This document shows, piece after piece, positions 1 through 47,690 of a stretch of DNA of 64,000 nt. The notes below the pieces were generated by a model. That model was not told the DNA's origin, did not search any database, and saw only the letters and a list, made by a program, of their open reading frames with translations. Position numbers and translations under genes: made by a program. Position 1 is the first letter of the stretch; each line of letters opens with the position of its first letter. This DNA is from Xiphydria camelus (taxonomy: Eukaryota > Arthropoda > Insecta > Hymenoptera > Xiphydriidae), in contig OY783197.1 in the NCBI GenBank assembly GCA_963678675.1, positions 24,161,934 to 24,225,933 on the forward strand, given 5' to 3'.

Positions 1-420
1 TTTGCCCTTTGTTTGCCCATGATTGCCCATCACTTTATTTTTTTTGCCCAACTCACCGTTTAGAAGATATAGCTAAAAATAGGGCGGGGGGCTAACTTCA
101 CGCTAGCCCCCCCATAACGTAATTTCGAAAATTCAAATGCATGATCGTTTGCCCTTTGTTTGCCCATGATTGCCCATCACTTTATTTTTTTTGTCCAACC
201 CACCGTTTAGAAGATATGGGGGGGGGGGAGCTAGCGTGAAGTTAGCCCCCCCATAGTGTAATTTCGAAAATTCAAATGCATGATCGTTTGCCCTTTGTTT
301 GCCCATGATTGCCCATCACTTTGTTTCGTTTGTCCAACTCACTGTTCAGAAGATATAGGGTGGGGAAGTGGGGAAGTATTACATATAAAACTTTGCCTCC
401 GCCGTCTTCATCGTAAGCGA
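1..420. repeat. Subterminal ~139-bp repeats, left end of foldback
   Basis: Three copies begin near 1, 146 and 285. Each starts CGTTTGCCCTTTGTTTGCCC, contains a small GC-rich palindrome (GGGGGGCTAACTTCACGCTAGCCCCCC in variants of both orientations), and ends with AATTTCGAAAATTCAAATGC. The inner palindrome is inverted between copies 1 and 2. Mirror copies lie at about 4860-5220. Confidence 0.8.
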
Positions 421-529
421 TCTACAATAGAACGGCGGAAGCAAAATGGTAAGTAGTAACACCTCGGCATCGCTTTCCCATTTTTAGATACAGTCTCAAT
501 GTGCATTTTCGACGTGATAACACTTCGGA

Positions 530-3500
530 ATCGTTTGCCCATTTTTAGAAAGATTATCAGTAAGCATTTTCGACGTTTGCCCAACCCGTGGAACCGCTCT
601 ACAGCGAGTTTCATAAGTGATGTAAAAATGAAAAATCGTAAAATCGGTGATATCAACTCGGAAACGTTTGCCCATTTTTAGAAAGAGCTTCAGTAAGTAT
701 TTTCGACGTTTGCCCAACCCGTGGAATCGCTCTACAGCGAGTTTCATAAGTGATGTAAAAATGAAAAATCGTAAAATCGGTGATATCAACTCGGAAACGT
801 TTGCCCATTTTTAGAAAGATTATCAGTAAGCATTTTCGACGTTTGCCCAACCCGTGGAATCGCTCTACAGCGAGTTTCATAAGTGATGTAAAAATGAAAA
901 ATCGTAAAATCGGTGATATCAACTCGGAAACGTTTGCCCATTTTTAGAAAGAGCTTCAGTAAGCATTTTCGACGTTTGCCCAACCCGTGGAATCGCTCTA
1001 CAGCGAGTTTCATAAGTGATGTAAAAATGAAAAATCGTAAAATCGGTGATATCAACTCGGAAACGTTTGCCCATTTTTAGAAAGAGCTTCAGTAAGTATT
1101 TTCGACGTTTGCCCAACCCGTGGAATCGCTCTACAGCGAGTTTCATAAGTGATGTAAAAATGAAAAATCGTAAAATCGGTGATATCAACTCGGAAACGTT
1201 TGCCCATTTTTAGAAAGATTATCAGTAAGCATTTTCGACGTTTGCCCAACCCGTGGAATCGCTCTACAGCGAGTTTCATAAGTGATGTAAAAATGAAAAA
1301 TCGTAAAATCGGTGATATCAACTCGGAAACGTTTGCCCATTTTTAGAAAGAGCTTCAGTAAGTATTTTCGACGTTTGCCCAACCCGTGGAATCGCTCTAC
1401 AGCGAGTTTCATAAGTGATGTAAAAATGAAAAATCGTAAAATCGGTGATATCAACTCGGAAACGTTTGCCCATTTTTAGAAAGATTATCAGTAAGCATTT
1501 TCGACGTTTGCCCAACCCGTGGAATCGCTCTACAGCGAGTTTCATAAGTGATGTAAAAATGAAAAATCGTAAAATCGGTGATATCAACTCGGAAACGTTT
1601 GCCCATTTTTAGAAAGAGCTTCAGTAAGCATTTTCGACGTTTGCCCAACCCGTGGAATCGCTCTACAGCGAGTTTCATAAGTGATGTAAAAATGAAAAAT
1701 CGTAAAATCGGTGATATCAACTCGGAAACGTTTGCCCATTTTTAGAAAGAGCTTCAGTAAGTATTTTCGACGTTTGCCCAACCCGTGGAATCGCTCTACA
1801 GCGAGTTTCATAAGTGATGTAAAAATGAAAAATCGTAAAATCGGTGATATCAACTCGGAAACGTTTGCCCATTTTTAGAAAGAGCTTCAGTAAGCATTTT
1901 CGACGTTTGCCCAACCCGTGGAATCGCTCTACAGCGAGTTTCATAAGTGATGTAAAAATGAAAAATCGTAAAATCGGTGATATCAACTCGGAAACGTTTG
2001 CCCATTTTTAGAAAGAGCTTCAGTAAGTATTTTCGACGTTTGCCCAACCCGTGGAATCGCTCTACAGCGAGTTTCATAAGTGATGTAAAAATGAAAAATC
2101 GTAAAATCGGTGATATCAACTCGGAAACGTTTGCCCATTTTTAGAAAGATTATCAGTAAGCATTTTCGACGTTTGCCCAATCCGTGGAATCGCTCTACAG
2201 CGAGTTTCATAAGTGATGTAAAAATGAAAAATCGTAAAATCGGTGATATCAACTCGGAAACGTTTGCCCATTTTTAGAAAGAGCTTCAGTAAGCATTTTC
2301 GACGTTTGCCCAACCCGTGGAATCGCTCTACAGCGAGTTTCATAAGTGATGTAAAAATGAAAAATCGTAAAATCGGTGATATCAACTCGGAAACGTTTGC
2401 CCATTTTTAGAAAGAGCTTCAGTAAGCATTTTCGACGTTTGCCCAACCCGTGGAATCGCTCTACAGCGAGTTTCATAAGTGATGTAAAAATGAAAAATCG
2501 TAAAATCGGTGATATCAACTCGGAAACGTTTGCCCATTTTTAGAAAGAGCTTCAGTAAGTATTTTCGACGTTTGCCCAACCCGTGGAATCGCTCTACAGC
2601 GAGTTTCATAAGTGATGTAAAAATGAAAAATCGTAAAATCGGTGATATCAACTCGGAAACGTTTGCCCATTTTTAGAAAGATTATCAGTAAGCATTTTCG
2701 ACGTTTGCCCAACCCGTGGAATCGCTCTACAGCGAGTTTCATAAGTGATGTAAAAATGAAAAATCGTAAAATCGGTGATATCAACTCGGAAACGTTTGCC
2801 CATTTTTAGAAAGAGCTTCAGTAAGCATTTTCGACGTTTGCCCAACCCGTGGAATCGCTCTACAGCGAGTTTCATAAGTGATGTAAAAATGAAAAATCGT
2901 AAAATCGGTGATATCAACTCGGAAACGTTTGCCCATTTTTAGAAAGAGCTTCAGTAAGTATTTTCGACGTTTGCCCAACCCGTGGAATCGCTCTACAGCG
3001 AGTTTCATAAGTGATGTAAAAATGAAAAATCGTAAAATCGGTGATATCAACTCGGAAACGTTTGCCCATTTTTAGAAAGATTATCAGTAAGCATTTTCGA
3101 CGTTTGCCCAACCCGTGGAATCGCTCTACAGCGAGTTTCATAAGTGATGTAAAAATGAAAAATCGTAAAATCGGTGATATCAACTCGGAAACGTTTGCCC
3201 ATTTTTAGAAAGAGCTTCAGTAAGCATTTTCGACGTTTGCCCAACCCGTGGAATCGCTCTACAGCGAGTTTCATAAGTGATGTAAAAATGAAAAATCGTA
3301 AAATCGGTGATATCAACTCGGAAACGTTTGCCCATTTTTAGAAAGAGCTTCAGTAAGTATTTTCGACGTTTGCCCAACCCGTGGAATCGCTCTACAGCGA
3401 GTTTCATAAGTGATGTAAAAATGAAAAATCGTAAAATCGGTGATATCAACTCGGAAACGTTTGCCCATTTTTAGAAAGATTATCAGTAAGCATTTTCGAC

Positions 3501-4012
3501 GTTTGCCCAACCCGTGGAATCGCTCTACAGCGAGTTTCATAAGTGATGTAAAAATGAAAAATCGTAAAATCGGTGATATCAACTCGGAAACGTTTGCCCA
3601 TTTTTAGAAAGAGCTTCAGTAAGCATTTTCGACGTTTGCCCAACCCGTGGAATCGCTCTACAGCGAGTTTCATAAGTGATGTAAAAATGAAAAATCGTAA
3701 AATCGGTGATATCAACTCGGAAACGTTTGCCCATTTTTAGAAAGAGCTTCAGTAAGTATTTTCGACGTTTGCCCAACCCGTGGAATCGCTCTACAGCGAG
3801 TTTCATAAGTGATGTAAAAATGAAAAATCGTAAAATCGGTGATATCAACTCGGAAACGTTTGCCCATTTTTAGAAAGAGCTTCAGTAAGCATTTTAGACG
3901 TTTGCCCAACCCGTGGAATCGCTCTACAGCGAGTTTCATACGTGATGTAAAAATGAAAATTCGTAAAATCGGTGATATCAACTCGGAAACGTTTGCCCAT
4001 TTTTAGAAAGAT
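530..4012. repeat. 133-bp tandem satellite, left arm, ~26 units
   Basis: Units of 133 bp follow each other head to tail. They differ mainly in a short stretch before TCAGTAAG: type a has GATTATCAGTAAGCA, type b GAGCTTCAGTAAGCA, type c GAGCTTCAGTAAGTA. From left to right the order is a c a b c a c a b c b c a b b c a b c a b c a b c b. The a-b-c trimer (399 bp) is therefore the main higher-order unit in the inner half. Each unit contains two copies of GTTTGCCCA. The last unit (about 3850-3980) carries extra substitutions, as expected at an array edge. Open frames of 89 codons recur on the minus strand but rotate frame at each unit, and are not genes. Confidence 0.9.
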
Positions 4013-4700
4013 GACTGAAAGCTTACTGAAGCTCTTTCTAAAAATGGGCAAACGTTTCATTTTTACATCACTTATGAAACTCGCTGTAGAGCGATTCCAC
4101 GGGTTGGGCAAACGTCGAAAATGCTTACTGATAATCTTTCTAAAAATGGGCAAACGTTTCCGAGTTGATATCACCGATTTTACGATTTTTCATTTTTACA
4201 TCACTTATGAAACTCGCTGTAGAGCGATTCCACGGGTTGGGCAAACGTCGAAAATGCTTACTGAAGCTCTTTCTAAAAATGGGCAAACGTTTCCGAGTTG
4301 ATATCACCGATTTTACGATTTTTCATTTTTACATCACTTATGAAACTCGCTGTAGAGCGATTCCACGGGTTGGGCAAACGTCGAAAATGCCTACTGATAA
4401 TCTTTCTAAAAATGGGCAAACGTTTCCGAGTTGATATCACCGATTTTACGATTTTTCATTTTTACATCACTTATGAAACTCGCTGTAGAGCGATTCCACG
4501 GGTTGGGCAAACGTCGAAAATACTTACTGAAGCTCTTTCTAAAAATGGGCAAACGTTTCCGAGTTGATATCACCGATTTTACGATTTTTCATTTTTACAT
4601 CACTTATGAAACTCGCTGTAGAGCGGTTCCACGGGTTGGGCAAACGTCGAAAATGCTTACTGATAATCTTTCTAAAAATGGGCAAACGATTCCGAAGTGT
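4013..4700. repeat. 133-bp satellite, right arm (inverted, ~5 units)
   Basis: The same 133-bp unit continues in opposite orientation. Read from the right edge inwards the types are a c a b a and a truncated b at the turning point. The first four match the outer four of the left arm (a c a b); after that the arms differ. This implies that one arm expanded or the other contracted by unequal exchange after the arms became mirror images. The turning point near 4010-4030 has a short disrupted unit. Confidence 0.85.
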
Positions 4701-5270
4701 TATCACGTCGAAAATGCACATTGAGACTGTATCTAAAAATGGGAAAGCGATGCCGAGGTGTTACTACTTACCATTTTGCTTCCGCCGTTCTATTGTAGAT
4801 CGCTTACGATGAAGACGGCGGAGGCAAAGTTTTATATGTAATACTTCCCCACTTCCCCACCCTATATCTTCTGAACAGTGAGTTGGACAAACGAAACAAA
4901 GTGATGGGCAATCATGGGCAAACAAAGGGCAAACGATCATGCATTTGAATTTTCGAAATTACACTATGGGGGGGCTAACTTCACGCTAGCTCCCCCCCCC
5001 CATATCTTCTAAACGGTGGGTTGGACAAAAAAAATAAAGTGATGGGCAATCATGGGCAAACAAAGGGCAAACGATCATGCATTTGAATTTTCGAAATTAC
5101 GTTATGGGGGGGCTAGCGTGAAGTTAGCCCCCCGCCCTATTTTTAGCTATATCTTCTAAACGGTGAGTTGGGCAAAAAAAATAAAGTGATGGGCAATCAT
5201 GGGCAAACAAAGGGCAAACGATCATGTATTCAAAAATTTTTTATTCGGTGGTGGGGGGGCTAACTTCACA

Positions 5271-12024: not shown

Positions 12025-12786
12025 TATGAGCCACGTGGCACGCAATGTGTTAAGGATTCTGTCCTAGTTGGATTCACTAGAGAAGCCGCCATGTTTTTTC
12101 GATAAAGGAGACCTTCAAATTATTACACGTGGGCTTAGTTTTAAATATTCCTTTAATACAAACATAACTTCACGAAAAGTCCCTAGCATTCCCCGGAATG
12201 GACAAATCATTAATTACTGAACTACAATAGTTCACCGTGAAAAACGAAGACTGTAGCAAGTTGATGGTCTCCTTTATCAGAAATACTATAGTTCATGAGG
12301 GGAATCATCTTTATTTGCAAATAAGAAGGGATCTAAGTTCTCACTAACACCACCTAATATTTCTTAGCCAAGTAGATTCTGTATGTAAGAGTGTACGTAA
12401 AACATGGCGGCTTCATCAAGCAGGACAGGGTCATTAAGTTCAGAATTAATTTCGCGTCCCGGAATTTTCGTTTGGTTGTTATTCAGCGAACTCGAATACC
12501 GCGCGTTTTTGTCGCGGCGTAACTGTGACTGGCATTTCGCGCGAACGTCACCGGAGTAGGTAAAAGTGAGGCCGCCGCGAGCTCGCGTCGCCCACGAGCG
12601 ACCAAACCGAAACTTTCCCAGTAATTCACAACGGGGGAGGCGTCGTCGCGGTGAACTCGGAATAGGTGCTGGCGGTACCGGAGAAAACGAAGGTCGGCGA
12701 CGGTGAACGAGAGGACGGGGAAGGGGGTGGAAAAAGGGCGAAGAAAGTGGGAGAGAGAAACTCCACAAGCTTCAGCGCGACCGCTC
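12025..12786. other. Non-coding flank of the CMC element
   Basis: 12025-12400 is AT-rich without features. 12400-12786 is CpG-rich with a pyrimidine-skewed minus strand, giving overlapping open frames with no family resemblance. The CMC element is inserted at the right end of this block. Confidence 0.4.
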
Positions 12787-12965
12787 CCCAGGTAGCAGTG
12801 ACACGTCATATTCACGTCGCTTGAAGGTGATTGTTCGTCGACGACGTCATATGCCTTAAATTCGACGTTTTAATCACGTGTTATTTGAAGATCATATTAT
12901 GACGTCATTGAAATGACGTTTTTTTCACGTAATTTGTTGACGAAACAGTCACATAATTTATTATT
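12787..12965. promoter_or_regulatory. Left terminal repeat and subterminal ACGTCA array
   Basis: After the terminal repeat there are repeated CACGTC, GACGTCAT, CGACGTTT, TGACGTCATT, ATGACGTTT and TTGACGAA motifs in both orientations. In plant Spm the accessory protein TnpA binds repeated subterminal motifs; by analogy these could be protein-binding sites for transposition. That role is inference. Confidence 0.6.
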
Positions 12966-13027
12966 TCCCTACGCATAATCAGGTGTGTAACTGTAAGAAA
13001 TGTATAAGATGAAATACCCATCAGTTG

Positions 13028-13150
13028 AAAAGTTTGTGAGATATTTTCGTTCAAAGTACAAGAGTAAATTGCGCTGCGTGCGACTAAGTTTCCAGCGCCC
13101 AGCGAAATTTACTCTTGTACTTTGAGCGGAAATATCTCACAAACGGTTCA
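13028..13150. repeat. Hairpin MITE-like sequence inside the CMC element
   Basis: GTTTGTGAGATATTTTCGTT, CAAAGTACAAGAGTAAATT is mirrored by AATTTACTCTTGTACTTTGA and GCGGAAATATCTCACAAAC around a ~30-bp loop. A related half is found in intron 5 of the DUF4806 gene (about 15645-15740). It lies upstream of the first gene and could be part of the element or a nested insertion. Confidence 0.6.
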
Positions 13151-13764
13151 GCGAATGGACATTTCACCTTTTACCTTTTTTTGTTCATCTTGACGAGCTC
13201 TACTACTTTTGTAGGAATTAAAATACCGAATTCCACTTAAAAAGATGAAAGTAACCTTCATATCTCGTAAATAATGCGTGTCATTGAAAATCTGTTGCAT
13301 CTACCATATGTATCTTTCAATACCAAACAAATTTTATTTGAAATATATTTTCATAAAATTACAAATAACGGAAATAAACGGGATTTTCCCTTGATACCTC
13401 TGCGGGATACTTTTTACAAGAACTCCAACGGAATAGAAAATCACGGCATTGCGGGTACCCGTGTTACCTGCCACTTTCCTTGGTATCCGCGTTTAATGAG
13501 TTCCATGTGCTGACCAAATGCCGTAGACCGAGGTGGGTCTTTCCCTATACTAACGTACCGTCACCACGGCAGAAACGGTTTATTTCTTTGAGTTTGAAAA
13601 TTTCGGTTCAGTCACGTCGGTAGTCCCGTACAGTTCAAACGATATTCGAACATTCGTGGCATTTTCAGTGCAGTGCATATACGATTTCTTAAAGCAGCAA
13701 AGTGACAGGAAAATAAAAGTGAGAGCGAGCGAAAAAAGAGTGACTGTATAAGACGTCGCGTATA

Positions 13765-15879
13765 ATGACATATGTAGGCGTCGAGTTTTCTGCTTCCGAG
13801 GAATGTGCAGGCGGCATAGCTGTAGTAAATAGCCGCTGGTTAACGCCACGAAAAAAAGAAGTCTTGTGGCCACCATGCAAGACGCAAAATGAATACAATA
13901 AATTATTAAAACGTGGGGAAAATCCAGATGAGGAGACCTGGACAGTGTATGGTATTTGCCGTCGTTTTTTTGAGTGCGGTAAGTACACACATATGCTTAT
14001 TCCTTCTTAACAAAAGGGGGATAACAACGTAAAGCCGAATTTTTGGAGCTCCTCATTATCTTTTCTTTGTGATATGGTTGAGCGCTGAACGAATGCACGA
14101 GATATCGTTCGATAACATTTTTTTTTATTTCATCAGATTCTTCAATTCGATATTAAAAAACTATAATCATTATATTTCTATACAGATGATTTTGAAAAAG
14201 CTTCGTATAAAATAAAACAAGCCGAAGTAACCTCAGATATACAGTCAGGTATTGAAACACCAAAAAAAAAGCAATCGTGGAAGAGAAAAGTCTCTGCTAC
14301 CCGCAAAATTTTGTCTGATTCGAGTGACGAAGAAAATATCAGTCTTCTTCCTAGACCACCGAAGGTAGAAATCTATAAAAAGTCTGGTTCTGAGTGCAAA
14401 AGATTGAAACTGGGAGAGGATGGTACGTACACCTGAAGAATTATTAATGAACATGGCTGATTATATTTTTCGCGCTGGCATTTCGATAAATTTAAGAAGA
14501 TTTTCAAATTGAGCCTTCATTAAATAATTATAGGAAATTTAAAACTTGATTTGTATCATTTTATGGACATGATCCAACAATTACGAGCAATCTTATTACA
14601 TGAAATAAGCTATTTAACAGTTTTGTATCATATCTTTGTATGAATTAGAAATGTATGATCTGAATATTTTTTAGTTAATTCCGATCCACATTCTATTAAT
14701 ACAAGAAATGATGATGATTATTCAGTTCAACCATCTCATTCAACGATCTCTCATCTTTCAAAAGTATCGCAATCTACCGGTACTTTGAATAATGATTTAG
14801 ATGACCTAGCAGCAAATAATGTTAATAATATCGGTAAGCCTATGGTAATTATATTTGAAATCCAATATTTCAATATGTGCGGGTAAAATTGCCTGCACAT
14901 ATTGCAATACGACAAAACGTTTCCGCCAACCTAATATACAGATTTTATGTAGGAAAATTAACAGACGTATGTCTATATATTTTTACCAATACTTTGATTA
15001 ATTTATTGTAGTGTTTCAACGGAAGTTATTACGAGAAATTTTTATTATAAAAGAACAAAATACCCAAATACTTCGATGGATTGAAAAGCAGTCAACAACT
15101 GCCACGTTAAACCAATGTCAAGCAGCACATTTACCATCAAATTTACCGATTAATACTACTGATGATCTAGATGGATTCGAACGTTATTTAGAAGAAAAAG
15201 AAAATTTGATTGGCTTCGTAAGAATTGTCTCTTTACTTATAAACATATTGACATATAATTTGATTCAAGCTTCTCTATATTTGATTACTTCTTTTTATTA
15301 TCATACTTCGTAAATCATATGAATAGCATACATATACGTATACCGCAATTCAAGAATTCAATTTATCACTTTAACTCAATTTCAAAAGTCACATCACAAC
15401 ATATTTCCAGACATAAATAAGCCTATACAAAAAAGGAATAACGTTTTGTTTCAGTCTACATACCTATCACAATTGGGCGGTAAAAACACATCATCCAAAG
15501 TAAATAATATATTACGTCGATGCATAACAGACAATCTCGCAAAAGAATATAGTTTCTTTGGCAAGCGTGCAGATAAGAAAGTTTTTTCACAACTAAAGTT
15601 GAAGACTGCCGTCGTTCGTAAGTATTCTGACATACTTTGAAGAATGAGTTATGCTGCGTGCCGCTACAAATTCCCATTACACATCAGAGTGGTGGAACAG
15701 ATTACTCTTGTATTTTGAGTGGCAATATGTTTAACAAACTTGTTTGAAATTGTTTAATTCCAGGTGCAATAAACTCAACTGATTGTTCAGAACAAGAAAT
15801 CAACGACAGTATCAAAATTTGGCTTAAACACGCACCTCAACGGTACAAAATTCAAGAATTGAAGAAACAGAATCCTTAA
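13765..15879 (+). CDS. DUF4806-type protein of the CMC element, six exons, 364 aa
   Basis: Exons are 13765-13978, 14186-14422, 14675-14833, 15012-15217, 15455-15617 and 15764-15879. All introns are GT-AG and the phases (1,1,1,0,1) join into one frame of 364 codons. An in-frame stop lies shortly upstream of the first ATG. Residues 1-71 (MTYVGVEF, then RWLTP..VLWPP) resemble the N-terminal module commonly found in insect DUF4806 proteins. Exons 2-3 are polar, with a basic NLS-like PKKKQSWKRK and an acidic SDSSDEEN stretch, so a nuclear protein is likely. From about residue 248 to the end is the DUF4806 core: LPINTTDDLDGFERYLEE, YLSQLGGKNTSSKVNNILRR, FSQLKLK, then WLKHAPQR. The biochemical role of DUF4806 is unknown to me. 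Placement next to the transposase suggests an accessory DNA-binding factor comparable to TnpA, which is inference. Confidence 0.78.
15640..15763. repeat. Intron 5 relic of the hairpin at 13028
   Basis: CTGCGTGCCGCTACAAATTC and ATTACTCTTGTATTTTGAGT GGCAATATGT resemble the right arm of the hairpin at 13028-13150, diverged. It is spliced out of the DUF4806 gene. Confidence 0.5.
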
Positions 15880-15882
15880 ACA

Positions 15883-17973
15883 ATGAGCAGAAAGACGACA
15901 AATGCAACTACAGGGAAACGTCAGCGGAATAGAAAAATTGCAAAAGCTGTCGAAAATGCATTACATGAAATAAAACAGGAAAGTAATAGAATTCAAGTAA
16001 CGAAGGAGTCTATTGCACATAATCATAAAAGCGAAAATGTATATAGAAGCGATTGTGATAGCAATGTTTCACCGCTACTTCAAAATAGTACCCACATGAA
16101 TCGCGTATTTTTGAATGACAGTGCTACCACATCAGAATTAGTCTATAACAATGATACTTTTGAAATGCTTTCCGATAGTAGCAGTACGATTGAAACACCT
16201 GATCTCTCTCAGAAGCTGAGACTTTGGGCAATAACTAGGAATGTACCTCGCTCGACAGTTAATGATCTATTACACATTCTTTCGCCCTATCATCCAGATT
16301 TACCGCTTGATTCACGAAGTTTATTAGTAACTAAATTAAATATAGACACTAAGAAACTAGAAAACGGGGAATACTGCCACTTGGGTTTATTGAATGGAAT
16401 TAAAAAAGTAATTTCCCCATATCTGAAGGATATTTCTAGTAATGTAATAGAAATAAGTTTCAATGTTGATGGTTTGCCCTTATTTGCAAGTTCGAAAACG
16501 CAGTTGTGGCCTATTTTGGGGTTAATAAAAAAAATAAAATGTCAACCTTTTGTTGTTGGAATTTTTTGTGGCAACGGCAAACCAAAGCCACTAACCGAGT
16601 TTTTAGAAAATTTTGTAAATGATCTTAGTCATTTATTGGAAAATGGCATTAAACTTGATAACAAAAAATATATTGTCACTTTACATAGCTTCGTTTGCGA
16701 TGCTCCAGCTAGGGCATACTTAAAATGTATAAAATCTCATGGCGGATACTCTTCTTGTGAAAAATGTACAGAATCTGGCGAGTATGTCGATGGAAGAGTT
16801 ACATTGCAAGGTATTCATGCGCCTAAGAGAACTGATACTTCATTCTCTCTACAAATAGATAGCGACCACCACTTAGGCGTTTCACCTTTATCGAAAATTC
16901 CAACAATAGGATTAGTGTCAAATTTCCCCATAGATTATATGCATAATGTATGTTTAGGTGTTGCTAAAAAGTTATTAAATACTTGGATTTCTGGTTCTTT
17001 ACAAGTCCGCCTAGGCAGTAGATCAGTTCATCTATTATCAGAACGCTTATTGTCATCGCGATTTTACATTCCTGTAGAGTTTAACCGCAAACCCCGCAGC
17101 TTGGAAGAATTGCCACGCTGGAAAGCAACAGAATTTAGAACTTTTGTATTATACCTAGGTCCGATTGTATTAAGAAATATCGTAGATCCCTCGATATATG
17201 AACATTTCTTGCTCTTTCATTCTGCTATTACTATTCTGATTTCATACAAACACATTTCCACATTCGGCTGCAGGACTGCTGGCAATGTTTTAAACGTATT
17301 TGTTAAGCATTGTGAAAAATTGTATGGCAAACAATTTTTAATTCATAATATTCATATGTTATCTCACCTCAGCGATGATGCAGAAATGTATGGACCTTTG
17401 GATAATTTCTCAGCGTTTGTTTTCGAAAACTTTTTAGGACAAATTAAACGCTTAGTGAAGTCACCTAATAGACCACTACAGCAAATTTGCCGCCGTATAA
17501 GTGAAATTGAAAGTGCATTTATTAATGAAAATATCAAATTAAAAGGACCAATAATTCCTAAATTTGAATATAACTGTGGCCCTCTTCCTACAAATATTAT
17601 TTTCAGAAACAGTAAACAATTTAAACAACTACGCTTGCAGAATTTCCAGATTTCTGTCCATGCATATTCTAAAGCTGATTCGTATTGCCTTATAAAAGAA
17701 TCTAGATCAGTTGTGCAAATTCATAATATTTTGATGGATCACAACAATTCTTTTACGATAGTCGGGAAACGATTTTCATTTCATACATCATTATATTGTA
17801 ATCCAATAGATTCTAAAGAATTAGATATTTATGTCATCACAGGAATTTCAAATGATTATGAAACATGGCCTATCAACGTTATTACTGCTAAATGTCTAGT
17901 TCTACCTATTACTCAAAAGAATGATAAAGATTGTTGGGTTTCGTTGCCTTTAATACACTCGATTTATACTTAG
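15883..17973 (+). CDS. Tnp2-like transposase of the CMC element, 696 aa
   Basis: A single uninterrupted ORF. The start ATG has A at -3 and follows the DUF4806 stop as TAA-ACA-ATG, so both frames are the same. Residues 1-110 are basic then polar. The core resembles invertebrate relatives of the EnSpm/CACTA Tnp2 transposase: FNVDGLPLF (Asp196), PFVVGIFCGNGKPKP, FVCDAPARAYLKC (Asp273), a CEKC zinc-knuckle-like pair (Cys292, Cys295), NFPIDYMHNVCLGVAKKLL (Asp351, His354) and FENFLGQIKR (Glu515). These are candidate DDE catalytic residues; which three act cannot be told by eye. The C-terminal part (IVGKRF, ending DCWVSLPLIHSIYT) also has the look of full-length relatives, so it appears complete. 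It should cut and rejoin the element ends in the nucleus. Confidence 0.8.
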   Translation: MSRKTTNATTGKRQRNRKIAKAVENALHEIKQESNRIQVTKESIAHNHKSENVYRSDCDSNVSPLLQNSTHMNRVFLNDSATTSELVYNNDTFEMLSDSSSTIETPDLSQKLRLWAITRNVPRSTVNDLLHILSPYHPDLPLDSRSLLVTKLNIDTKKLENGEYCHLGLLNGIKKVISPYLKDISSNVIEISFNVDGLPLFASSKTQLWPILGLIKKIKCQPFVVGIFCGNGKPKPLTEFLENFVNDLSHLLENGIKLDNKKYIVTLHSFVCDAPARAYLKCIKSHGGYSSCEKCTESGEYVDGRVTLQGIHAPKRTDTSFSLQIDSDHHLGVSPLSKIPTIGLVSNFPIDYMHNVCLGVAKKLLNTWISGSLQVRLGSRSVHLLSERLLSSRFYIPVEFNRKPRSLEELPRWKATEFRTFVLYLGPIVLRNIVDPSIYEHFLLFHSAITILISYKHISTFGCRTAGNVLNVFVKHCEKLYGKQFLIHNIHMLSHLSDDAEMYGPLDNFSAFVFENFLGQIKRLVKSPNRPLQQICRRISEIESAFINENIKLKGPIIPKFEYNCGPLPTNIIFRNSKQFKQLRLQNFQISVHAYSKADSYCLIKESRSVVQIHNILMDHNNSFTIVGKRFSFHTSLYCNPIDSKELDIYVITGISNDYETWPINVITAKCLVLPITQKNDKDCWVSLPLIHSIYT

Positions 17974-18551
17974 GAATAATTAATGTATAATATCCTTCAA
18001 TAGTACCGAAATACATAACACGTACGTTAGAAGTTATACACATACCGTACGTTAGAAGTTTTAACATACAATATGTATTACGTACATATATATGTATATT
18101 CTCAAATATATGTAGATGTTATTTCTCGAATATGCAATTGTGTATTAATATTTTTCAATGCCTATTATTGTAATTCTAATGATCATATTTCACTGTTTAA
18201 CAATATTGCGACTAGAGCTTTACTTACATTTTTTACACTCTTCTTTAAAATTTCCTTGAGTTTAAATAATATTGCAAAGCTTTTCACTGAGAATAAGATT
18301 TTAAAGTGTGACGTCTTTAGGATGGCATTATCACGTAACTTTTAACGTCAATATGACGACCCGAATCAATAAAAACGAACGTAAATAAAACGTGACTATA
18401 GTGACGACATATTGACGTCGAAGTATGACGTCTCTTTAACGAGACATAATCACGTCATTTATGACGACATTATAACCGAACTAATCACGTTATTTCGACG
18501 AATCGAGTGACGAAATATTGACGTGAGTTTGACGTGCCACTGCTACCTGGG
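17974..18551. promoter_or_regulatory. 3' region and right subterminal ACGTCA array of the CMC element
   Basis: Downstream of the transposase stop is ~330 bp of AT-rich sequence. From 18308 follow many TGACGTCTT, AACGTCAATATGACGAC, TTGACGTCGAAGTATGACGT and ATCACGTCATTTATGACGAC motifs up to the right terminal repeat. AATAAA at 18368-18373 is a possible polyadenylation signal inside the array. Confidence 0.55.
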
Positions 18552-18553
18552 TC

Positions 18554-42656: not shown

Positions 42657-43605
42657 TAGTCCAGTGCATTTAGGAATATTTTATAGGTGTGACCCAAAAA
42701 TTTCGGGTACATTTTTTCTTTTGTTGCTCATTCGAAAGGGTCATCGATGGAGACCTTAACCCTGAATTTGCGCATTTCTCAAATTGCCCCGTCCGCCGCC
42801 ATCTTGGATTCTTTTTTTTTTCAACTACTCATATCTCGCGTTCTAATAATCCCACAGCAGTCGCTTTGGGGTCGTTGGATTCGTCAGAATTTACTCTTTA
42901 ATTGAGTTTATATTAAGTAAAACTCTCCAACGTACTGGAAAAAAGTTATTAGCGTTCAAAGTTGAAAGTTGTTTGCCAAAAGTTCTTGCGCCCGGGTTTT
43001 CCGCGCGTAGTTCTTTTCCAGTGCATCAGAGACCCCTATCGATGCTTAACTATTTAAACTAGACTCAATTTGCAGTATTTTAAAAAAAGAATCATCCCGA
43101 TCGGTTGATTCCTCGCCCGGCAATCCACGCTCGAAGTTGCGCTGTTTATTATCGTGCTATTTTGAAGCCTCTAATACTCGCGCGTCGCGCTTTGGCGAGT
43201 TCGCGGTTCGCGCTGCATTTCTCGCTTTTGTAACTAATATAACTCAAATTACTTAAGATCAACGACATATTCGTTAAATCTATGCTAAGAACACGCGTTT
43301 TACATTAATTTTTTACTTAAATTTATAACTCAGATCAAATATGATTTGAGACATTCGGTAATATATGCTCTATCTTTCTCTGCAGGAACGTGTGTATGTG
43401 TGCGTGTGCGTGTTTAAAGAATAAAAAGAAAAATACGGCCGGTCCCGCGAAAAACCCAGGGAAAGTTTTACAATATCTTTTTTCCTTGTTCTCTGCTTTC
43501 CTCGAGACACAGTTGGCTGCCAGATGCCTTGCCTACTGTTCCGACAAACGTTGGTCGGAATTCTGATTATCGGCTAATGAACGCAATAAAAAGAATTTCA
43601 TTGAG

Positions 43606-44538
43606 ATGTTAAAGAAGCACCTGATCAATCATGGATTCGAAGTGAGACAAGCATGGGAGGATGCGGACGTGGACATCGTTAGAACGGCAATTGAAGTAGC
43701 TTCAAGATTTGATTCCGCCATAGTCGTAGGAGAGGACGTGGATCTACTCGTATTGATGTGCGCACTTGGAAAAAATCTCAAAAATATCTATTTTCGTAAA
43801 GTCGGAAGGGGAGCAACCGCATCGAAAATGTATTCTACGAGTAGCTTCAAGCATAAAAATATGATAGAGCACATACTTTTCATGCACGCATTTTCGGGAT
43901 GCGACACCGTGTCTGCGATCTGTGGAATGGGGAAAAAAAAAATAATTGACGTCATTAGAAAAAATGTTCACCTTCGAGAAGGAATAAAATTATTTCAGAA
44001 AACCACTCCCGGACAAAATAACATCGCTGCAGCTGGGGAGAGTGTGTTGATTGCACTGTACGGAGGAAAAGAATCCGATGCTTCTATTGATCAATTCAGA
44101 TATAAAATGTTTGCACGTTCAGGCCTCAAAACGAAGACCGACTTATCACGATTGCCTCCAACGAGCTCAGCAGCACGCCAACATTCCCTGCGGACATATT
44201 ACCAGGTTCAGAAGTGGCTTGGAGAAGAGAAAAATGCGCTTGACTGGGGCTGGAAAAAAAGTAACCGGGGTTTGGAGCCAGTGACTAGCGAGCAGGAACC
44301 AATTCCACGAGTTCTATTGGACATTATATCCTGTGGCTGCACAAAAAAATGCGGTAACGCTTGTGGATGTCGAAAGGCAGGATTGAAATGTTCAAACCTA
44401 TGCAAGATTTGCTGTGGCGATTTTATATCTGAATTGATCAATAGAAGCATCGGATTCTTTTCCTCCGTACAGTGCAATCAACACACTCTCCCCAGCTGCA
44501 GCGATGTTATTTTGTCCGGGAGTGGTTTTCTGAAATAA
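43606..44538 (+). pseudogene. Fragment of a PIN-like/CXC-domain mobile-element protein
   Basis: A 310-codon open frame. Residues 1-110 (DADVDIVRTAIE, VVGEDVDLLVLM, HAFSGCDT) have the acidic-residue spacing of a PIN/FEN-like nuclease fold; Asp21, Asp23, Asp44, Asp46 and Asp100 are candidates. About residues 185-215 have LPPTSSAARQHSLRTYYQVQ. Residues 243-270 form a cysteine-rich CXC (tesmin/TSO1-like) cluster, CGCTKKCGNACGCRKAGLKC and on. This order matches a multicopy protein family of arthropod and other invertebrate genomes that appears mobile. The ATG is probably internal: the family normally has more upstream sequence, and the frame is closed 5' of it. The 3' end runs from the CXC cluster into the antisense arm, so the C-terminus is also lost. 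Confidence 0.6.
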
Positions 44539-44922
44539 TTTTATTCCTTCTCGAAGGTGAACATTTTTTCTAATGACGTCAATTATTTTTTTTTTCCCCA
44601 TTCCACAGATCGCAGACACGGTGTCGCATCCCGAAAATGCGTGCATGAAAAGTATGTGCTCTATCATATTTTTATGCTTGAAGCTACTCGTAGAATACAT
44701 TTTCGATGCGGTTGCTCCCCTTCCGACTTTACGAAAATAGATATTTTTGAGATTTTTTCCAAGTGCGCACATCAATACGAGTAGATCCACGTCCTCTCCT
44801 ACGACTATGGCGGAATCAAATCTTGAAGCTACTTCAATTGCCGTTCTAACGATGTCCACGTCCGCATCCTCCCATGCTTGTCTCACTTCGAATCCATGAT
44901 TGATCAGGTGCTTCTTTAACAT
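44430..44922 (-). pseudogene. Mirror copy of the PIN-like fragment in the right arm
   Basis: The minus strand encodes the same first ~167 residues as 43606-44108, because this arm is its inverted copy. It ends shortly after QFRYK and lacks the CXC part. This is a by-product of the palindrome, not a second gene. Confidence 0.7.
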
Positions 44923-45863
44923 CTCAATGAAATTCTTTTTATTGCGTTCATTAGCCGATAATCAGAATTCCGACCAACGTTTGTCGGAACAGTAGGCAAG
45001 GCATCTGGCAGCCAACTGTGTCTCGAGGAAAGCAGAGAACAAGGAAAAAAGATATTGTAAAACTTTCCCTGGGTTTTTCGCGGGACCGGCCGTATTTTTC
45101 TTTTTATTCTTTAAACACGCACACGCACACATACACACGTTCCTGCAGAGAAAGATAGAGCATATATTACCGAATGTCTCAAATCATATTTGATCTGAGT
45201 TATAAATTTAAGTAAAAAATTAATGTAAAACGCGTGTTCTTAGCATAGATTTAACGAATATGTCGTTGATCTTAAGTAATTTGAGTTATATTAGTTACAA
45301 AAGCGAGAAATGCAGCGCGAACCGCGAACTCGCCAAAGCGCGACGCGCGAGTATTAGAGGCTTCAAAATAGCACGATAATAAACAGCGCAACTTCGAGCG
45401 TGGATTGCCGGGCGAGGAATCAACCGATCGGGATGATTCTTTTTTTAAAATACTGCAAATTGAGTCTAGTTTAAATAGTTAAGCATCGATAGGGGTCTCT
45501 GATGCACTGGAAAAGAACTACGCGCGGAAAACCCGGGCGCAAGAACTTTTGGCAAACAACTTTCAACTTTGAACGCTAATAACTTTTTTCCAGTACGTTG
45601 GAGAGTTTTACTTGATATAAACTCAATTAAAGAGTAAATTCTGACGAATCCAACGACCCCAAAGCGACTGCTGTGGGATTATTAGAACGCGAGATATGAG
45701 TAGTTGAAAAAAAAAAAGAATCCAAGATGGCGGCGGACGGGGCAATTTGAGAAATGCGCAAATTCAGGGTTAAGGTCTCCATCGATGACCCTTTCGAATG
45801 AGCAACAAAAGAAAAAATGTACCCGAAATTTTTGGGTCAATTCCTAAATGCACTGGACTATAA

Positions 45864-46892: not shown

Positions 46893-47690
46893 GGGTCAGT
46901 CGATTCTTGACGTGCAAAGCCTCTTCTGTCGCTCGCGGTCAGTCGATTCTTGACGTGCAGAGCCTCTTCCGTCGCTCGCACTCTTGACGCGCATAGCCTC
47001 TTCCGTCGCTCGCGGTCAGTCGATTCTTGACGTGCAGAGCCTCTTCCGTCGCTCGCACTCTTGACGCGCATAGCCTCTTCCGTCGCTCGCGGTCAGTCGA
47101 TTCTTGACGTGCAGAGCCTCTTCCGTCGCTCGCACTCTTGACGCGCATAGCCTCTTCCGTCGCTCGCGGTCAGTCGATTCTTGACGTGCAGAGCCTCTTC
47201 CGTCGCTCGCACTCTTGACGCGCATAGCCTCTTCCGTCGCTCGCGGTCAGTCGATTCTTGACGTGCAAAGCCTCTTCTGTCGCTTGCACTCTTGACGCGC
47301 ATAGCCTCTTCCGTCGCTCGCGGTCAGTCGATTCTTGACGTGCAAAGCCTCTTCTGTCGCTTGCACTCTTGACGCGCATAGCCTCTTTAGTCGCTCGCGC
47401 TCAGTCAATTCTTAATCACCAAACCGAACAGTTCTCTCAGTGCAAAGCCTCTTCTGTCGCTAGCACTCTTGACGCGCGTAGCCTCTTTAGTCGCTCGCGC
47501 TCAGTCGATTCGTAATCGCTCGAACGGAACGTTCACAGTGCAAAGCCTCTTCTGTCGCTTGCATTATTATCACAATCAGAGCATAGCCTCCTCCGTCGCG
47601 TGCATTACTCTCAGTGCTTAGCCTCTTCCGTCGCTCGCACTCCTGACGCGTGTAGCCTCTTCCGTCGTTCGCGCTCAGTGTATTCCGATC
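46893..47690. repeat. 77-bp tandem repeat array (two-part unit)
   Basis: A 77-bp unit made of two related parts, GGTCAGTCGATTCTTGACGT, GCAGAGCCTCTTCCGTCGCT, CGC and ACTCTTGACGCGCATAGCCT, CTTCCGTCGCTCGC. About six regular units run to ~47390, then decaying versions to ~47690. The core AGCCTCTTCCGTCGCT recurs every 35-42 bp. Overlapping 69-codon minus-strand frames are repeat artefacts. A CpG-rich minisatellite. Confidence 0.9.

Follow-up and report, generated by a model that had tools for sequence, protein, structure and literature searches.

A recently amplified two-gene CMC transposon of Xiphydria camelus pairs a DUF4806 protein of predicted BEN fold with a RAG1-like transposase

In a stretch of 64,000 nucleotides from the hymenopteran Xiphydria camelus (assembly GCA_963678675.1, contig OY783197.1, positions 24,161,934 to 24,225,933, forward strand), hereafter called the window, positions 12787-18551 are occupied by a transposon with two genes, one encoding a DUF4806 protein (gene 1) and the other a transposase. 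Judged by its tips, its target-site duplication (TSD) and the catalytic motifs of its transposase, the element belongs to the CMC transposons of the animal CACTA/TRC type. It probably constitutes an autonomous cut-and-paste system of two components, that is, a BEN-fold helper that binds the ends and a RAG1-like transposase. The element has undergone a very recent burst of copies, full-length for the most part, and the pairing of its two genes recurs in other transposon families of this genome and in other insects.

Termini, genes and subterminal words of the element

A preliminary description, made from the letters of this DNA alone, had reported matching termini, TC on both flanks, a six-exon frame for a DUF4806-type protein and an unbroken 696-codon transposase in the same orientation, and each of these observations was borne out. 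The two terminal inverted repeats (TIRs) of 32 nt are 91% complementary and spaced 5701 nt apart, and both genes lie between them. The outer 14 nt of the TIRs are identical, and exact matches to them in the window are confined to these two places. The features of the element are given below in window coordinates.

12785-12786, no strand: left TSD, TC (sequence read; exact 2-bp repeats in 38/41 copies)
12787-12818, + strand: left TIR with tip CCCAGGTAGCAGTG (32 nt, 91%; tip counts in window and genome)
12803-12919, no strand: left subterminal cluster of 5 ACGTCA/TGACGT words (word counts)
13765-13978, + strand: gene 1 exon 1, conserved N-terminal domain, predicted alpha/beta (exon model, alignment; fold from the relative P0121)
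14186-14422, + strand: gene 1 exon 2 (exon model)
14675-14833, + strand: gene 1 exon 3, poorly conserved linker (exon model, alignment)
15012-15217, + strand: gene 1 exon 4, predicted helix and start of DUF4806/BEN (exon model, profile, P0121 model)
15455-15617, + strand: gene 1 exon 5, DUF4806/BEN (exon model, profile)
15764-15879, + strand: gene 1 exon 6, end of the predicted BEN fold, conserved KxWLKHAPxR, stop codon TAA at 15877-15879 (exon model, alignment)
15877-15885, + strand: TAA-ACA-ATG junction of gene 1 stop and transposase start (kept in 41/41 copies)
15883-17973, + strand: transposase, 696 residues (open reading frame; 912 relatives; intact in 41/41 copies; genome protein search)
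16195-17538, + strand: transposase residues 105-552, predicted RAG1/Transib-like DDE core
16468-16470, + strand: codon of D196, proposed first catalytic Asp (invariant in 67 aligned proteins)
16699-16701, + strand: codon of D273, proposed second catalytic Asp (same alignment)
16756-16767, + strand: C292-x2-C295, C(2)C motif (67-protein alignment; motif from PMC4592977)
17353-17367, + strand: H491-x3-H495, H(3)H motif (67-protein alignment; motif from PMC4592977)
17425-17427, + strand: codon of E515, proposed catalytic Glu (67-protein alignment)
17545-17922, + strand: transposase residues 555-680, predicted BAH-like fold (structure only)
18309-18535, no strand: right subterminal cluster of 7 ACGTCA/TGACGT words (word counts)
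18520-18551, - strand: right TIR (32 nt, 91%; tip counts)
18552-18553, no strand: right TSD, TC (sequence read; copy survey)

The predicted model of gene 1 comprises six exons and five GT-AG introns and yields a protein of 364 residues, of which residues 247-319 match the DUF4806 profile PF16064 (E 3.7e-6; 27.6 bits as compared to a cut-off of 25). The search for relatives returned 28 proteins, and 23 of these align over 96-100% of the gene 1 protein, which supports the exon model. PF16064 was matched by 25 of 27 relatives at E up to 10; the classical BEN profile PF10523 gave a single match among the same 27 (E 0.026). A BEN fold is predicted for the C-terminal domain, whose sequence identity to the BEN domain proteins Insv, Bsg25A, BEND6, BANP, NACC1 and BEND3 is only 10-18%. 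Structure comparison of the N-terminal domain gave no fold match, with an aligner that barely tested that part.

The transposase frame opens 3 nt behind the stop codon of gene 1 and in the same reading frame. D196, D273 and E515 as well as C292/C295 and H491/H495 are invariant across the 67 aligned transposase proteins, that is, the DDE residues occur together with the C(2)C and H(3)H motifs that characterize CMC transposases. At E up to 10, DUF4218 was found in 64 and Transposase_21 in 14 of these 67 proteins; for the transposase of the window, DUF4218 scored 24.5 bits, short of the 27-bit cut-off, and Transposase_21 gave no match. For the core, a RAG1-like DDE fold is predicted. Alignments to RAG1 stop near residue 555, ahead of the predicted BAH-like domain, and some of those to Transib reach residue 696. 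No BAH sequence profile was present among the families shown in the profile search of the aligned transposases.

Short words are concentrated inside both ends. TGACG/CGTCA occurs 17 times in the terminal 200 and 270 bp as compared to 4 times in the intervening 5295 bp; dinucleotide shuffles gave a mean of 2.6 and never exceeded 11 in 2000 trials. The longer word ACGTCA/TGACGT, which forms the two clusters, has a single interior occurrence at 15918. The left part of the element also contains an 87-nt inverted repeat (12995-13181), a partial related copy of which lies in intron 5 of gene 1 (15640-15728); this repeat is possibly a nested foldback.

Copies in the genome and linkage of the two genes

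Searching the 357-Mb assembly (38 contigs) for exact matches to the 14-nt tip, to which the counts are confined, returned 79 forward and 79 reverse occurrences and none for the reversed control. The first 100 tip positions listed form 50 pairs, of which 47 have a tip-to-tip length of 5765-5768 bp, as against 5793, 5775 and 5460 bp for the remaining three; short pairs were absent from these 100 positions. The 30-nt start word of gene 1 likewise occurs 79 times, equal to the forward and reverse tip counts, and the exact 21 nt of the left end 71 times. We read 41 copies (the window and L009-L048). Exact 2-bp repeats flank 38 of them, involving 12 different dinucleotides, at a random expectation of ~6%. 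The exceptions are L021 (3 bp), L024 (1 bp) and L043 (none). As only one of 41 copies shows 3 bp, a TSD of that length was discarded. The tip counts and the flanking repeats together argue that the element is not a product of chance.

In 40 of the 41 copies gene 1 is intact along with its splice sites; these include L036, which has a 15-base in-frame insertion in gene 1. The remaining copy, L041, has lost 305 bp of the gene. The transposase is intact in all 41. Pairwise comparison of the copies revealed 0-4 substitutions (median 1, gaps excluded). There are 12 variable sites, among them 9 singletons and site 14944, which splits the copies 20 to 21. Nine singletons in 41 x 5765 bases correspond to 3.8e-5 per site, which at an assumed mutation rate of 2.8e-9 dates the burst to roughly 14,000 generations. 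A protein search of the genome, in which 64 of 662 candidates were scored, found 100% identical open frames in 64/64 cases. Thus, copy counts, intact frames, the few substitutions per pair and the identical protein matches reveal a very recent burst, and with 41 near-identical copies read and word counts of ~79 the family looks recently or still active. Contig collections of viruses and prokaryotes yielded no DNA relatives, in keeping with an animal element.

Some copies show peculiarities of their own. In L031 and L045, position 12801 has the base of the corresponding site in the right TIR, as though sequence of one end had been transferred to the other. In L036, two separate small insertions add 13 and 15 bases; this copy sits in a GAGAGGGA-like repeat, so that its flank repeat reads 8 bp.

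The pairing of DUF4806 with a transposase extends beyond this family, here called A. A genome search with PF16064 yielded 12 loci, 11 of which pair DUF4806 with a transposase; family-A copies are not included, presumably owing to the introns that interrupt the domain in this family. Nine of the 12 share one score and represent family B, and at all nine a family-B transposase match lies within ~2 kb on the opposite strand, as deduced from coordinates. In L049, the only family-B copy read fully, gene 1 on the + strand and the transposase on the - strand converge, and the latter is ~30% identical to the window transposase. Family B begins and ends in CCC tips (CCCAGGTAGCAATTTC and CCCAGCTAGCAAATTAG), with TSDs GG/GG and TT/TT in the two copies inspected for them. 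Both genes are also paired at the C20 locus (family C) and at the C6 locus, where a decayed relative of family B is found.

F1, an abundant transposase family with 714-residue frames and 23 same-score matches in the genome transposase search, was sampled at one copy. There, within the 1.2 kb downstream of the transposase, an exon matches the accessory N-terminal profile (E 4.2e-7), and so does the next exon (E 1.1e-6). The profile had no match at E up to 1 in the upstream stretch of F1 (L057, 2 kb, the last part of which is the transposase start) or in a 6-kb control stretch of the window; its matches to gene 1 of the window arise by construction, as this protein is part of the profile. Across the transposase families examined for linkage, i.e. 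A, B with its decayed relative, C and F1, three gene orders were encountered, the genes being convergent or reversed in B, C and F1. The genome holds many more families of transposases of this kind, with open frames up to 769 residues; several show repeated identical scores and may therefore be recently active CMC lineages.

Other insects provide further cases. Among 148 retrieved proteins, seven match both the gene 1 and the transposase query, each with the gene 1 part N-terminal: five models from Rhamnusium bicolor, one from Brassicogethes aeneus and one from Cyphomyrmex costatus, the last matching the N-terminal part of gene 1 only. Consecutive locus tags, read from the names rather than from DNA, were found in Aquatica leii (RN001_002793/002794) and Pyrocoelia pectoralis (RI129_012829/012830); within each pair the contigs are of equal length. 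The preliminary description had called for such a co-occurrence search and had regarded two outcomes as fatal to its idea, namely that DUF4806 is never linked to this kind of transposase elsewhere and that copies with the same termini lack the first gene. As far as these tests reached, neither outcome was observed.

The end words differ between the two families compared. ACGTCA occurs 12 times in the ends of family A and is absent from those of family B, whereas AGAACG occurs 8 times in the ends of B and is absent from those of A. Moreover, the 8-mer AACGTTCT, located within AAGAACGTT(CTT) near-palindromes, is found 7 times in the ends of family B and nowhere in its interior, a count reached by 0/500 shuffles. 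Different BEN proteins together with different end words are what a family-specific recognition factor predicts, and the data from these two families are suggestive of such a factor.

Proposed mechanism and alternatives

In the mechanism that we propose, the gene 1 protein, consisting of a conserved N-terminal domain, a predicted helix and a predicted C-terminal BEN DNA-binding fold, most likely binds, perhaps as a dimer, to the near-palindromic TGACGTCA-type repeats inside both ends. It would then recruit or help to assemble the RAG1-like DDE transposase (D196, D273, E515), which would cut at the CCC tips, excise the element and insert it at staggered sites, thereby generating the 2-bp duplication. 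The C-terminal BAH-like domain may steer the enzyme to chromatin. Translation of the transposase frame might be achieved by alternative splicing, an internal promoter or re-initiation. This scheme, in which both proteins would be required, parallels that of TnpA and TnpD, which are both needed for transposition (PMC1636069). The preliminary description had already suggested DUF4806 as the animal counterpart of such an accessory factor. This idea is supported by the linkage seen in copies, families and insects; end binding and the need for the helper are inferred.

With only slightly better than even confidence, we extend the scheme to animal Tnp2-type CMC transposases at large, for which DUF4806/BEN proteins would be the general end-recognition partner. 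Each family would possess a BEN protein adapted to a near-palindromic subterminal site particular to that family, as is suggested by the difference in end words between A and B, and the RAG1-like enzyme with its BAH-type reader would form a RAG-like two-protein system that is independent of RAG2.

Several observations weigh against these interpretations. The structure model behind the BEN fold is that of the relative P0121 and not of the gene 1 protein itself, and the corresponding Foldseek E-values are weak (0.15 to 1.1). When any word is allowed and the tips are excluded, the top 6-mer count of family A (10) is reached by 2/500 shuffles and its top 8-mer count (4) by 4/500; in family B, the top 6-mers TATAGA and CTATAA are AT-rich and common in the interior, too. 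Family B is largely decayed, the whole 427-residue transposase query piece being uninterrupted in 2/9 copies. For C20 the evidence is the gene pairing, the element ends lying outside the stretch read, and for F1 it consists of N-terminal exons, with BEN exons and element ends likewise outside. At the C10 locus (L056), a DUF4806 relic, the 5.5 kb read contain no transposase. Another search for fused proteins, with residues 1-330 of P0014, returned the query and one THAP4-like protein only, and genomic neighbours are known for a minority of the 28 DUF4806 relatives. Finally, divergence of the two proteins was uncorrelated across eight linked pairs (r -0.06, Mantel p 0.56), a set drawn up without the near-duplicate fused models P0089 and P0114 and lying outside families B and C.

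Gene 1 could instead encode a regulator, which binds the ends to control the promoter or the silencing of the element and leaves recognition of the tips to the transposase alone. BEN proteins are for the most part chromatin or repressor factors, and the left cluster lies upstream of gene 1. They are also predicted to recruit chromatin modifiers (PMC11075544). However, clusters are present at both ends, the larger one (7 vs 5 words) at the right and far from the presumed promoter, and the word of family B is likewise found at both ends. In addition, regulation and transposition are compatible, TnpA acting in both (PMC1636069). A role confined to regulation is thus unlikely.

Less probable still is a single fused polypeptide, made by read-through or by splicing across TAA-ACA-ATG, with the separate frames being an annotation effect. 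The frames are indeed in register and only 3 nt apart, and the seven fused models of other insects point in this direction. However, the stop codon is kept in 41/41 copies, and fused models account for only 6 of the best 120 of 912 transposase relatives, the aligned ones having a start M and an RQxYRR-like motif in common. As the genes are convergent or reversed in families B, C and F1, fusion is not the general plan, and a single read-through product was set aside. Least probable of all is that gene 1 is a captured host gene or a passenger without a role for the element: DUF4806 is present in the gene sets of zebrafish and Hydra (PMC11075544, PMC7642931), which makes a host origin possible, but the linkage recurs in several divergent families and three gene orders, and the gene 1 frame is intact in 40/41 copies.

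The two-component system with a BEN-fold helper would supply a conserved candidate for the DNA-binding partner of animal CACTA elements, which have been known since at least 2006 and whose proposed partner has no conserved relative according to the available part of the source (PMC1636069). It also offers a likely origin for the DUF4806 genes that are enriched in Hydra (PMC7642931) and among the gene families peculiar to one ambrosia beetle (PMC13270666). If DUF4806/BEN proteins are the general partner considered above, many of the DUF4806 genes that are multicopy or reside in hosts would belong to transposons or descend from transposon genes. Furthermore, a RAG1-like core joined to a possible chromatin reader would be one more case against which to compare the acquisition of helper proteins by RAG-type recombinases.

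Repeats of other kinds were noted elsewhere in the window. Positions 1-5230 contain a mirrored array. Its outer parts consist of 139-bp repeats (1-365) and 138-bp repeats (4855-5230); a 133-bp unit is present in ~26 copies from 514, and its apparent reverse complement in ~5 copies from 4055. The whole looks like one large inverted, satellite-like element. At 43567-44961 the peptide LSANERNKKNFIEMLKKHLINHG... is encoded on the + strand (43567-44535) and on the - strand (44401-44961), an inverted duplication that had no Pfam match at E up to 0.1. At 46905-47413 a 77-bp unit is repeated in tandem (6.6 copies, 97% matches).

Comparison with known systems

SmTRC1 and other animal TRC elements resemble the present element in their CCC tips, 2-bp TSD and Tnp2-type transposase (DeMarco 2006, PMC1636069), the present transposase being putatively of this type; the tips and the TSD are shared by families A and B. 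The Tribolium tip CCCTAGTAGCACCGA is similar to CCCAGGTAGCAGTGA. In that work, a second protein has been proposed to take over the DNA binding of TnpA, and the available part of that paper describes the SmTRC1 accessory proteins as lacking detectable relatives in other elements. In contrast, the element described here has a conserved accessory gene of BEN/DUF4806 type, and all but one of the copies read have the full length. Sly1-1 of Neurospora is also a two-gene CMC element, whose transposase has the C(2)C and H(3)H motifs and whose second gene, of unknown function, is conserved beside the transposase in one other fungus (PMC4592977). In that element, however, the second gene is divergently transcribed and is not identified, in the available part of the paper, as BEN or DUF4806.

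In the available parts of the literature searched, DUF4806 within a CMC element was not described (PMC11075544, PMC7642931, PMC13270666), and nothing was found that links the BEN domain to EnSpm or a BAH domain to a transposase of CACTA type. As far as these searches show, the conserved BEN accessory gene, the family-specific end words and the BAH-like domain are new.

The cellular BEN proteins share with gene 1 the predicted fold of the C-terminal domain, whereas the present protein is transposon-encoded and has an N-terminal domain of its own. RAG1/RAG2, ProtoRAG and Transib differ in that the helper found here is a BEN protein and not RAG2; the TSD of RAG1 and Transib is 5 bp, and the 2-bp TSD led us to reject membership in the RAG/Transib elements. 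Plant En/Spm, with a 3-bp TSD and its own gene order and TnpA sites, was rejected as well, since the tip is CCCAGG instead of CACTA and the TSD is 2 bp; a further difference is that gene 1 encodes a BEN protein. Both systems nonetheless encode two proteins, a transposase and a proposed end-binding factor, and have repeated subterminal words at both ends. The present pair is possibly the animal counterpart of the two-protein system best known from plants.

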